Shown here: positions 3,480 through 6,106 of the stretch, piece by piece
How positions within the stretch are numbered: the stretch's first letter is position 1
Layout: every line of letters begins with the position of its first letter
Origin: Chloroflexota bacterium
Lineage (GTDB): Bacteria; Chloroflexota; UBA6077; CF-72
Direction: 5' to 3'
Assembly: GCA_019247135.1 (NCBI GenBank)
Contig: JAFAPL010000218.1
Span: 1 to 6,106 of the forward strand
DNA: 6,106 nucleotides
Translations under genes and position numbers: made by a program
Notes under the pieces: model-generated
What the model saw: the letters and a program-made list of their open reading frames with translations, nothing else
Told to the model about the DNA's origin: nothing
The model's database searches: none

Positions 3480-3533
3480 AGCGTCACGTAGAGCGTCACG
3501 CGAATGTAAAAAAGCGTCACGCCAAGCGTCACG
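3480..3533. repeat. Four direct copies of AGCGTCACG in two 33-bp-spaced pairs
   Basis: Exact copies of AGCGTCACG begin at 3480, 3492, 3513 and 3525. Within each pair the spacing is 12 bp; equivalent copies of the two pairs are 33 bp apart, close to three helical turns. In both pairs the second copy is followed by CG. On the nadE strand the motif reads CGTGACGCT. The position, 107-160 bp upstream of the nadE start, and the helical phasing suggest an operator for a regulator binding cooperatively. No known NAD-gene operator (NrtR, NiaR, NadR, NadQ) is recognised with confidence. One more copy lies inside the hydrolase gene (4517-4525), most likely by coding chance. Confidence 0.6.
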
Positions 3534-3571: not shown

Positions 3572-3883
3572 TTAGTTGAACCTGTCGGGGCTCGGCCGGC
3601 GACGCCGCGGCTCCGCGCCGCCCCACAGCTGCTCGGGCGAGGGTTCCGTCCGCTCGCGCACCGTCTCGACCTGGTCGAGGTACAGAGTGCCGCCGCAATC
3701 GTCACACCGCAACCCCGCCCAATTGACCAGCCGAACCGGCTGTCCGTTGGCCCGCGGACGAAAGACGACGCCACGCACGGCCGGCGACCGCTGGCTCTCG
3801 AGCGAGCCCGCCATGCGGCCACACAGGTGGCACTTGACTTCCGCGACCACGCGCTCGGACACAACGTTCATAACGACGTCCAT
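3572..3883 (-). CDS. Small zinc-ribbon-like protein with two CxxC pairs
   Basis: A 103-aa protein not assigned to a named family. It has two cysteine pairs, CHLC (18-21) and CDDC (60-63, in RCDDCGGTLYLD), 38 residues apart, the pattern of a zinc ribbon binding one Zn(2+) or, less likely, a redox centre. Between them is a basic, beta-rich stretch (VRGVVFRPRANGQPVRLVNW). The C-terminal 25 residues are low-complexity, rich in R, P and E. No signal peptide or membrane segment is seen, so it is probably cytoplasmic, with DNA, RNA or protein binding possible. The frame is open to 3967, but that start would leave only 3 bp to the divergent hydrolase gene, so an internal ATG is preferred: 3883, or 3871, which has a weak GGA upstream and begins MNVVSERVVAEVKCHLCG. 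The base pattern supports coding, but the function is unknown. Confidence 0.75.
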   Translation of the reverse strand: MDVVMNVVSERVVAEVKCHLCGRMAGSLESQRSPAVRGVVFRPRANGQPVRLVNWAGLRCDDCGGTLYLDQVETVRERTEPSPEQLWGGAEPRRRRPSPDRFN

Positions 3884-3918
3884 TATCGCCGTAGACGCGT
3901 CTTGGTCTGCACGATTTT

Positions 3919-3937
3919 CCGCGCCGCCTCGGCGCGG
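3919..3937. promoter_or_regulatory. Perfect hairpin in the divergent intergenic region
   Basis: CCGCGCC (3919-3925) and GGCGCGG (3931-3937) form a perfect 7-bp GC inverted repeat around a 5-nt loop. It lies between the divergent small CxxC gene and the alpha/beta hydrolase, ending 33 nt before the hydrolase ATG. No T run follows on either strand, so it is not an intrinsic terminator. It may be an operator serving both promoters or a structure in the hydrolase mRNA leader. Confidence 0.35.
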
Positions 3938-3954
3938 GTAGACTGGCCAGCCCC

Positions 3955-3961
3955 AGGGAGG
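3955..3961 (+). promoter_or_regulatory. Strong ribosome binding site of the hydrolase gene
   Basis: AGGGAGG lies 9 nt before the ATG at 3971. It decides the start: the reading frame is open for more than 1.6 kb upstream, antisense to nadE and the small CxxC gene, but only this ATG has a ribosome binding site and gives a normal alpha/beta hydrolase N-terminus. Confidence 0.8.
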
Positions 3962-3970
3962 CGTCAATCA

Positions 3971-4711
3971 ATGCCCTTGTACGAGCGCGCCGACGCAAAG
4001 ATCTATTACGAGGAGCGCGGCTCTGGATTTCCGCTCCTGCTACTCGCGCCTGGTGCCCTGAACTCCACCGTCGAATTCTGGGGCCGCATGCCCTTCAACC
4101 CAATCGATGTCTTCAAGGAGGAGTTCCACATCATCGCCATGGACCAGCGCAACGCCGGCCGGTCCAGTGGGCGGCTGCCCGTCGATGACCCGTGGGGCGC
4201 GTACGCCGACGATCAACTCGGCGTGCTGGACCATCTCGGCATTCAGGAATTTCTGGTGATGGGCTGCTGCATCGGTTGCTCCTTCATCCTGAAACTCGCG
4301 CAACGAGCACCGCACCGCATCGTTGCCGGCGTGATGGAGCAACCGATCGGAAAAGACGAAACGAACGCCGGCGTGTTCGGCCCGCGGATCTATACGGAAT
4401 GGGGCGAGAAGCTGGCGGCCAAGCGCAGCGACATCAAGATTGAGGACGTGAACCGCTTTGGCGAGCGAATGTTCGCCGGCGATTTTGTCATCAGCGTTCC
4501 GCGCGACTTTATTCCGAGCGTCACGACGCCGCTGCTCGTCATGCCGGGCATCGACCCGGCACATCCAACCGGCGTCGGCCTGGAGGTCGCCCGCCTGTTG
4601 CCGAACTCCGAGCTGCTGGAGAAATGGCGCGAGCCCGCCGAGATCGTGCCGCAAACGATTGAACGGGTGCGCGAGTTTCTGCGTGCGCACACGCCGTCGG
4701 GTGTCGCATGA
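3971..4711 (+). CDS. Alpha/beta hydrolase with cysteine at the nucleophile position
   Basis: A 246-aa cytoplasmic alpha/beta-hydrolase-fold protein, first gene of a coupled operon. The fold is shown by the N-terminal strands (KIYYEERGSGFPLLLLAPG, 10-28, with the oxyanion region at 26-30), the DQRNAGRS segment (58-65) and the nucleophile elbow GCCIG (98-102) followed by a helix. The elbow normally reads GxSxG; here Cys100 takes the place of serine, as in dienelactone hydrolase. The likely acid is Asp195 in LLVMPGID, and His198 in the same DPAHP stretch is the best histidine candidate, because the usual C-terminal GGH motif is missing. The cap region (about 125-180) is short. Family members cleave esters, lactones or carbon-carbon bonds of ring-fission products, which fits the neighbours, but the substrate is not known. 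Its TGA stop overlaps the next ATG (ATGA, 4708-4711). Confidence 0.88.
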   Translation: MPLYERADAKIYYEERGSGFPLLLLAPGALNSTVEFWGRMPFNPIDVFKEEFHIIAMDQRNAGRSSGRLPVDDPWGAYADDQLGVLDHLGIQEFLVMGCCIGCSFILKLAQRAPHRIVAGVMEQPIGKDETNAGVFGPRIYTEWGEKLAAKRSDIKIEDVNRFGERMFAGDFVISVPRDFIPSVTTPLLVMPGIDPAHPTGVGLEVARLLPNSELLEKWREPAEIVPQTIERVREFLRAHTPSGVA

Positions 4712-4839
4712 ACACCGAGACACCAGACGAGCGCGAGGCGAAAAACACCCCTCCTCCGGCCGACGAGGAGGAAGAAACCGAGGAGCTTCGCTGCACGTTG
4801 TGCGGGCTCCGTGCGTGCTGGACCGGAGATAAGCGATGA
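4708..4839 (+). CDS. 43-aa acidic microprotein with a CxxCx4C motif
   Basis: A very short gene filling the space between the hydrolase and the FAH-family gene exactly. Its ATG overlaps the hydrolase stop (ATGA, 4708-4711) and its TGA overlaps the FAH-family start (ATGA, 4836-4839), a layout that implies translational coupling on both sides. Residues 1-26 are hydrophilic and acidic, with an E/D-rich run at 19-26 (DEEEETEE). Residues 27-38 read LRCTLCGLRACW, with Cys29, Cys32 and Cys37, and the protein ends TGDKR. Three cysteines could bind a metal, perhaps completed by a partner protein, or act in thiol chemistry. It has no membrane segment or signal peptide. It might be a small subunit, metallochaperone or activator of the flanking enzymes; this is inference from position alone. 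No named family is recognised. The CxLCG start of its motif resembles that of the small protein at 3572-3883. Confidence 0.75.
   Translation: MNTETPDEREAKNTPPPADEEEETEELRCTLCGLRACWTGDKR
4825..4828 (+). promoter_or_regulatory. Ribosome binding site of the FAH-family gene
   Basis: GGAG lies 7 nt before the ATG at 4836, inside the last codons of the microprotein gene. It supports this start and suggests that ribosomes finishing the microprotein can restart here. Confidence 0.6.
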
Positions 4840-5714
4840 AAGTCGTCGTCTTCGGTCCGCAGCGTCGAGTCGGCGCGCTGGTCGGCGATGAGGTCATTGA
4901 TTTGCAGCAGCCGAGCCTGCGCACGTTCATCGAGGGTGGACAGGCAGCCCTGGATGCTGCTCAACGTATCGTCGACACCGGAACTCGCGAGGCCCTGACA
5001 AATCTGCGTGCGCCGTGGCCGGAGCGGCGCATCGCCTGCATGGGCGGCAACTACGCGGATCACCTGGCCGGCATGCAGCCCGGCGGGCACTCACTCGAGG
5101 AAATCGCGCGCACCACACGCGAAGGCGGGCAATGGGGCTTCTGGAAGGTGCCCTTCGAGGTCCGCGGACCCGACGACTCGATCGCGTATCCACGCCGCAC
5201 CCAGTATTTCGACTATGAAGCGGAGGTGGCGATCGTCATTGGCCGGCGCGGCAAGGACATTCCGGCCTCGGCGATCGATGAATTCGTGTGGGGCGTCACG
5301 CTTTTCAATGACTGGAGCATCCGCGACGGCATGGGCGGCCCGAAGCCGTTGAATTACAACATGGCCAAGAACTTCGACGGCTCGGCGTCCATGGGACCGT
5401 CCATCGTCGTCGGCGAGCTGGACCCGCAGAACGTGGACGTGCAGACCTGCATCAACGGTCAGATCCGACAGCAATTCAACACACGCGACATGATCTTCTC
5501 GTTCGCCGAGGCACTGGAGTATCTGTCACGTGATTTCACGTTCGTTCCGGGCGACATGATCGCCGGTGGCACGGCCGCTGGTACCGCCGCCGACAAGACG
5601 CAGCGGGCACCGGATGGCAGTCGACCAAAGGACTTGTTCTTGAAAGTGGGCGACACGGTCGAAATCTCGTCGCCTCAGATCGGTACGCTGAGCAACCGCG
5701 TTGCCGAGGCTTAA
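4836..5714 (+). CDS. Fumarylacetoacetate hydrolase (FAH) family protein
   Basis: A 292-aa enzyme of the FAH superfamily, whose members hydrolyse, decarboxylate, hydrate or isomerise oxo-acids from ring cleavage using Mg(2+) or Mn(2+). The N-terminal about 60 residues form the small domain typical of the HpcE/YcgM-like branch. In the catalytic domain the metal ligands Glu128 and Glu130 (FDYEAEVAIVIG), Asp159 (FNDWSIRD) and the catalytic Lys178 (MAKNFDGSASMGP) are present. The loop GTAAG (245-249) replaces the usual GTPAG, and LFLKVGDTVEI followed by IGTLSNRV closes the fold. The NYADHLAG segment (72-79) keeps His76 but has Gly79 where hydrolase/decarboxylase members usually carry the Glu of an HxxE dyad, and the following lid (80-118) looks longer than normal. 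The exact reaction is therefore open: 2-hydroxyhepta-2,4-dienedioate isomerase, an acylpyruvate hydrolase or a related activity. It is the last gene of the coupled operon. Confidence 0.92.
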   Translation: MKVVVFGPQRRVGALVGDEVIDLQQPSLRTFIEGGQAALDAAQRIVDTGTREALTNLRAPWPERRIACMGGNYADHLAGMQPGGHSLEEIARTTREGGQWGFWKVPFEVRGPDDSIAYPRRTQYFDYEAEVAIVIGRRGKDIPASAIDEFVWGVTLFNDWSIRDGMGGPKPLNYNMAKNFDGSASMGPSIVVGELDPQNVDVQTCINGQIRQQFNTRDMIFSFAEALEYLSRDFTFVPGDMIAGGTAAGTAADKTQRAPDGSRPKDLFLKVGDTVEISSPQIGTLSNRVAEA

Positions 5715-5912: not shown

Positions 5913-6106
5913 ATGGCCGAGCTGGTCGGCGCCTTCGGGGTGCCGCACATGCCCAATACACCACTGACGGTTCGCAACGAGCCGCACGGCGAGCTGGCGC
6001 AGCTGTTCGGGGCCGTACGCGCACATGTCGACGCCGTCGATCCGGACGTCCTGCTCGTATTCGACACCGATCACTTCGCCAACTTCTACTATCACAAACT
6101 GCCGGT
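5913..6106 (+). CDS. Class III extradiol ring-cleavage dioxygenase, LigB type (3'-truncated)
   Basis: The first 64 codons of a LigB-superfamily dioxygenase, which opens catechol-type rings next to the hydroxyl pair using Fe(2+) and O2; the gene runs off the window end. Two signature segments are visible: GAFGVPHMPNTP (6-17) with His12, and DPDVLLVFDTDHFANFYY (43-60) with His54. These match the two iron-binding histidines of protocatechuate 4,5-dioxygenase beta subunit (His12 and His61); the third ligand, a C-terminal Glu, is outside the window. The start is fixed: an in-frame TAA lies at 5865-5867 and 5913 is the only start codon after it. No clear ribosome binding site precedes it. It lies 198 bp downstream of the FAH-family gene in the same direction and probably acts in the same catabolic route. 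Other LigB members, such as gallate or homoprotocatechuate dioxygenases and non-aromatic paralogues, cannot be told apart from this part. Confidence 0.88.
   Translation, partial: MAELVGAFGVPHMPNTPLTVRNEPHGELAQLFGAVRAHVDAVDPDVLLVFDTDHFANFYYHKLP

Follow-up and report, generated by a model that had tools for sequence, protein, structure and literature searches.

Rubredoxin carries two CxxCG knuckles, the four cysteines of which bind a single iron atom, and a zinc ribbon or zinc knuckle needs four zinc ligands, cysteine or histidine, within its chain. Alpha/beta-hydrolases with a Cys-His-Asp set are, for their part, those of the dienelactone-hydrolase type. In the cobalt nitrile hydratases the metal claw motif reads CTLCSCY (PMC2667541). 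Nitrile hydratase activators, like other small metallochaperones, have an accessory gene that adjoins that of the enzyme. We describe here a locus that may be compared with these systems. It lies in a stretch of 6106 nucleotides from a Chloroflexota bacterium, analysed as a whole and named the window hereafter, where a frame of 43 codons (4708..4839, plus strand; translation MNTETPDEREAKNTPPPADEEEETEELRCTLCGLRACWTGDKR, followed by its stop codon) comes after the gene of an alpha/beta-hydrolase and carries, near the C-terminus of its product, the block CTLCGLRAC (Table 1).

The CTxCG turn of this microprotein is like the knuckles of rubredoxin and of zinc ribbons, and some of its scattered, weak Pfam matches are to zinc ribbons; yet it has one CxxC pair and an additional cysteine in place of two knuckles, and no domain surrounds them. 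Against the four cysteines of rubredoxin, three are found in 120 of the 121 family members counted here and in what follows (120 relatives listed out of 142, and the window protein), the exception, P0226, having a fourth one at the position of the tryptophan of the motif. No histidine is conserved across the 121 members, where a zinc ribbon would call for a fourth ligand, so that a single chain does not hold a complete metal site. A search of the PDB with a profile of 10 peptide sequences returned nothing significant, its sole match being a rubredoxin, through RCTVCG, at E 7.5. Cobalt nitrile hydratase, with the threonine of its cobalt motif (PMC2667541), has C-T-L-C in common with the microprotein, in which the threonine is invariant too, but the third cysteine of the latter stands five places after the second, not two, the spacing being CxxCx4C in 121 of 121 members instead of the CxxCSC claw of the alpha subunit; moreover, the microprotein, with some 40-60 residues, is no alpha subunit and matches no family. 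The arrangement of accessory gene and enzyme gene recalls that of the nitrile hydratase activators, but no sequence relation to these was found, and the hydrolase met here is not known as a metal binder.

This hydrolase has the fold and the nucleophile elbow of the alpha/beta-hydrolases and, as in the dienelactone-hydrolase type, a cysteine in the elbow (GxCxG), in all of 39 aligned sequences. It differs from that type in that Trp219, present in 39 of 39, appears where the catalytic histidine is expected after the last strand, while His198 would belong to the preceding loop, a placement deduced for a part of the chain that sequence alignments to solved structures stop short of. With Cys100, His198 and Trp219 all conserved in the 39 sequences, the family possibly has an atypical catalytic set.

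Table 1. Position of the genes, motifs and junctions in the window
Feature	Position	Strand	Remark
Partner gene, alpha/beta-hydrolase, 246 aa	3971..4711	+	
Nucleophile elbow GCCIGCS, Cys100 codon 4268-4270	4262..4282	+	Cys100 in 39/39 aligned hydrolases
His198, candidate catalytic base	4562..4564	+	39/39 aligned; putative role
Microprotein gene	4708..4839	+	43 aa; relatives by sequence search
ATGA start/stop overlap, microprotein and hydrolase	4708..4711	+	Putative translational coupling
N-terminal tail, residues 2-25	4711..4782	+	Variable, acidic, Pro-rich; probably disordered
Conserved block ELRCTLCGLRACW, residues 26-38	4783..4821	+	Family alignment
Cys29, Cys32, Cys37, codon starts	4792, 4801, 4816	+	
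ATGA stop/start overlap, microprotein and FAH-family gene	4836..4839	+	Peculiar to the window
FAH-family gene	4836..5714	+	Pfam FAA_hydrolase, E 1.1e-50; neighbour here, not a conserved part

The microprotein gene and its family

The frame behaves as a gene, more than chance would allow, because it has relatives, because the position of its start is kept and because identity is highest in its own reading frame. Over the 13 codons of the motif at 7 distinct loci, window included (L027, a near-copy of L025, being omitted), mean pairwise amino acid identity is 0.67 in the frame of the gene versus 0.45-0.55 in the five other frames. Nucleotide identity at codon positions 1, 2 and 3 of the same set is 0.71, 0.85 and 0.67; the third position is the least conserved, which speaks for a protein. 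A low dN/dS had been proposed as a check in the first-pass annotation of this DNA, and the value found is only moderate: pooled pN/pS is 0.47 for the 13 motif codons of 8 sequences, a figure which takes in variable positions and in which third positions may be constrained, in DNA rich in G+C. An RNA element was considered and set aside, as no Rfam family reaches its gathering score in the window.

With the window protein as a single query, 9 small proteins were retrieved (E 1.3e-5 to 2.2), which have ELRCT[LI]CGLRACWTG in common and tails that are unlike. The 142 small relatives were obtained, at E <= 10, with a profile built from 17 members, of which 7 had been translated from beside hydrolases and 9 recur among the 120 listed; outside the query alignment the top match is P0131 (E 5.2e-11). 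The relatives were found via shared words of five residues, and a search of this kind favours conservation of the motif. C-T-x-C-x4-C is present in all 121 members. The third place of the motif is occupied by Ile (60), Leu (59) or Phe (2), the fifth by Gly (114), Asn (5) or His (2), the sixth by Leu (108) or Met (13), with Arg next in 106; Ala or Ser precedes the third cysteine in 121 and Trp follows it in 119, Glu stands three places before the first cysteine in 113, and the chain ends 2-4 residues past the third in 90. The conserved cysteine microprotein announced behind a hydrolase with a cysteine elbow is therefore real, and the numbering first given for its C29, C32, C37 and W38 is correct. 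The tails are stretches rich in Ala, Pro, Glu and Thr, with a mean net charge of -4.1 and a hydrophobic fraction of 0.06. Their acidic character, also announced, holds as far as charge is concerned, which is negative in 107 of 121 members, but not as a conserved sequence, since this part is poorly conserved.

At E <= 1 the window protein matches no Pfam family, and at E <= 0.01 no NCBIfam family; Pfam searched with 80 of the 121 members gave scattered matches only (best E 0.012), and in PHROGs the window protein had two weak ones (best E 0.063), two relatives none. The structural model of the peptide, a weak one (mean pLDDT 67.9, with residues 1-30 at about 60-71), had no Foldseek match. Four motif strings were absent from the literature searched, a corpus that lies mostly outside subscription papers, and the available part of PMC11364881 makes no mention of Chloroflexota or Chloroflexi. 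Many of the 120 listed relatives are already in databases as 'hypothetical protein', and all 120 are predicted proteins, contrary to the supposition that gene callers may systematically miss them. The individual proteins had thus already been deposited; new are their grouping into a family, the motif and the partner.

Hydrolase-anchored loci and the pairing of the two genes

A real microprotein can be told from a chance frame by anchoring the search on a neighbour, here the upstream hydrolase. This enzyme was sought in 393 genomes of one class at E <= 1e-60 and in 400 genomes of the phylum at E <= 1e-75. At stricter limits, no additional hydrolase came from an order of 44 genomes and a class of 29, both searched twice, or from another 272 genomes sampled from the phylum; all these sets overlap. 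Only hydrolases at E <= 1e-60 or 1e-75 were taken, which led to 31 loci with their flanks, and every ORF with 25 aa or more and a start between -8 and +150 nt of the hydrolase stop was listed, whatever its sequence. A microprotein gene with all three cysteines is present at 7 of these 31 loci and absent from 24, three of which (L041, L059 and L065) show an unrelated frame, started by TTG at 4 nt or less from the stop and devoid of the motif. Four carrier loci (L026, L055, L056 and L058) came to light by way of the hydrolase only, without use of the motif, and the other three (L024, L025 and L027) belong to genomes first met through a motif scan; the seven come from two groups only, the order of 44 and the class of 29 genomes, and L025/L027 as well as L031/L033 are near-copies. 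As the gene is missing from 24 of the 31 loci, the microprotein is not needed for the basic chemistry of the hydrolase family.

At the seven carrier loci the start codon lies at -1 (five loci), +2 (one) or +4 (one) when counted from the first nucleotide of the stop codon of the hydrolase, which amounts to an overlap of 4 nt, ATGA or GTGA, at five of them, an overlap of 1 nt at one and a gap of 1 nt at one. In the window the ATG of the microprotein (4708-4710) overlaps the TGA of the hydrolase (4709-4711), and its own TGA (4837-4839) overlaps the ATG of the FAH-family gene (4836-4838), exactly as had been claimed of a 43-codon frame with an ATGA overlap at both ends. The lock is two-sided in the window only, because the stop-side overlap is found at none of the seven other loci, where no gene overlaps the stop of the microprotein. 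A frame which begins at the stop of the hydrolase at seven loci might also call to mind a programmed frameshift, with the block translated as an extra C-terminal part of the enzyme and no separate protein at all. This is hardly credible, as the shift needed would be -1 at six of the seven loci and +1 at L055, and as a start codon is kept at the junction in seven cases out of seven. An in-frame fusion of hydrolase and block was rejected as well, C[TSPA]xC being absent from all 120 listed hydrolases.

The carriers are the hydrolases closest to that of the window, with 52.7-58.3% identity in tblastn, versus 40.7-51.7% for the non-carriers. In a tree of 39 hydrolases they stand, 15 rows out of 15, on one side of a branch with support 99/97; these rows comprise the window, the seven loci where adjacency was seen and seven others picked through contigs of equal size. 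The first-pass annotation had proposed that related gaps without an open frame, or without conserved cysteines, would tell against it. Because the carriers are together on the tree, its claim stands for the nearest hydrolases, with frame and three cysteines at 7 of 31 loci, and fails for the wider family, with neither at 24 of 31.

Sizes of contigs, at least 5000 bases long, that recur in both the hydrolase list and the microprotein list number 7, versus 0.05 expected from jittered sizes, with 28 listed hydrolases and 37 listed microproteins on such contigs. Among the latter, 30 are without a matching listed hydrolase contig, and 21 of the 28 hydrolases, the record of the window included, are unmatched, adjacency thus being unobserved for most database members; as the lists hold 120 each, out of 3714 hydrolases and 142 peptides, lone members are neither shown nor excluded by them. 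A converse search, with a motif pattern run on sets of 400 and 386 genomes, also favours the pairing: the pattern matched at 8 distinct places, 6 of them at known carrier hydrolase loci, and it misses L058, where the motif has diverged; the matches in G535 and G042 were rejected, having no hydrolase match and no like frame. A stricter pattern run on all genome contigs gave 5 matches, 3 of them real (L001, L004 and L005, whose record titles name Dehalococcoides, Dehalococcoidia and Chloroflexi), while those of L002 (Pontibacter) and L003 (Actinomycetota) have neither a hydrolase match nor a like frame. The scan of viral contigs gave 0 matches.

A proposed role for the peptide, and the genes around it

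What we observe is a gene, its motif, its junction and its association with hydrolases from one side of a branch, and it seems natural to ask what the peptide is for. We propose, as the likeliest reading though with belief and doubt evenly poised, that it is a co-translated accessory peptide, the three thiolates of which, probably metal-binding, act on the hydrolase. Because of the ATGA or GTGA junction, translation is presumably coupled: ribosomes that end the hydrolase would restart at the overlapping start codon, and both proteins would be made together. The tail, probably disordered and negatively charged, would be a soluble tether, and the C-terminal block E-[LM]-x-C-T-[LI]-C-G-[LM]-R-[AS]-C-W would be the working part. 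The three invariant thiolates, placed in a turn like CxxCG, lead us to suspect a metal site, and the insignificant rubredoxin match and the C-T-L-C of cobalt nitrile hydratase point the same way, short of proof; the thiolates would most likely hold zinc, iron or cobalt in the manner of a rubredoxin knuckle, with a fourth ligand coming from the hydrolase, from a second copy of the peptide or from solvent. Zinc binding alone does not explain the invariant threonine. The block would dock on the hydrolase via its conserved Leu, Arg and Trp and, once docked, might complete, stabilise or gate the active site. A metal donor, a small subunit or an activator had been suggested at the outset, and the microprotein may be one of these.

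From a lone small frame we thus arrive at a family of more than 100 members, which have one invariant motif in common and probably one partner. Should the active site prove to be completed or gated by the peptide, this would be a novel means of controlling an alpha/beta-hydrolase, and it might explain how this clade works with a cysteine elbow, apparently in the absence of the usual histidine. A bolder version, which we would call improbable, is that the microproteins are an undescribed, translationally coupled class with a minimal three-thiolate site, marked by a threonine like that of cobalt nitrile hydratase, and that a hydrolase with a cysteine elbow and a displaced histidine needs this site for a working active site, the two genes together specifying a new metallo-thiol enzyme of two components.

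The main rival to this accessory, metal-binding peptide is thiol exchange with the cysteine-rich elbow, GCCIGCS, in which the invariant cysteines of the peptide would find a natural counterpart: as a redox partner, a small dithiol or trithiol switch or a donor of thiol, it would reduce, persulfidate or reversibly disulfide-link Cys100, beside which are Cys99 and Cys103. We deem this possible but unlikely. Cys99 is present in 13 of 15 carriers versus 6 of 24 non-carriers, and Cys103 in 12 of 15 versus 3 of 24; neither is confined to carriers (the non-carriers L057 and L059 have the two together), which counts against this reading. Its genetic surroundings point both ways. Of the five loci with searched neighbours, three (L056, L058 and L024) have a thioredoxin-like or AhpC/TSA gene next to the pair, but these genes are convergent (L056, L058) or divergent (L024) and hence outside the unit, L056 and L058 belong to one class, and no such gene is among the two neighbours searched at each of L025 and L055, nor beside the gene in the window.

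At these five of the seven loci (L024, L025, L055, L056 and L058), 10 neighbouring ORFs in all were searched with Pfam. The families met are a solute-binding protein, AhpC/TSA, a molybdopterin-binding dehydrogenase, a short-chain dehydrogenase, a sulfatase, a gamma-glutamyltranspeptidase, an acyl-CoA dehydrogenase, a thioredoxin-like protein and a histidine kinase, the thioredoxin-like one being alone in recurring at more than one locus. Its two genes are at L056:6896-7789 (-) and L058:5229-5984 (+), in two genomes.

The only strictly conserved part of the peptide being a C-terminal block borne on a flexible tail, it could also be viewed as a handle: its cysteines would be acylated or otherwise loaded, and the hydrolase, paired with it one to one at seven loci, would act on the loaded peptide like a thioesterase, much as small carrier proteins do service in other pathways. 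We find such a carrier or substrate rather improbable, as no loading enzyme recurs beside the pair and the neighbours searched vary by locus. A secreted or modified peptide, signal or RiPP-like precursor, would likewise have a short C-terminal block with Cys and Trp, the 13 residues being the product and the tail its leader. Here, however, it is the leader that would vary and the core that would be nearly invariant, and most RiPPs show the reverse. Among the 10 neighbouring ORFs Pfam recognised no maturase, although the gamma-glutamyltranspeptidase (L055) and the solute-binding protein (L024) are among them, and the peptide itself matches no family; we hold this to be very unlikely.

The first-pass annotation had set the microprotein between two catabolic enzymes, as a factor for the hydrolase or for the FAH-family enzyme. 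A link with the latter, or with a catabolic pair, was rejected, there being no FAH match at E <= 1e-4 in the 31 hydrolase regions, where the sequence available beyond the peptide gene is only 191 nt at L026 and 1241 nt at L056. According to a simple ORF caller, five of the six loci with enough sequence (L024, L025, L027, L056 and L058) have a convergent ORF next to the peptide gene, and the hydrolase and microprotein genes therefore stand alone, as a pair, at those five; at L055 the next ORF is codirectional and encodes the gamma-glutamyltranspeptidase, about 85 nt on, from a start picked by hand.

Some further features of the window may be recorded. Four copies of AGCGTCACG are found within 54 bases at 3480-3533 and one more, at 4517, falls within the gene of the hydrolase, making 5 copies in the window versus 0.19 expected; the array, between an NAD synthase gene and a small frame of the minus strand, is perhaps bound by a regulator. 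This small frame (3572-3967, -) has two CxxCG pairs, CHLCG and CDDCG, and looks like a zinc ribbon, with no Pfam match; a stretch 36% identical to it is present at L065:480-683. After the FAH-family gene, at 5913-6106 (+), comes what appears to be the start of an extradiol (LigB-like) dioxygenase, a weak match below cut-off, and the downstream genes of the window look like aromatic catabolism.
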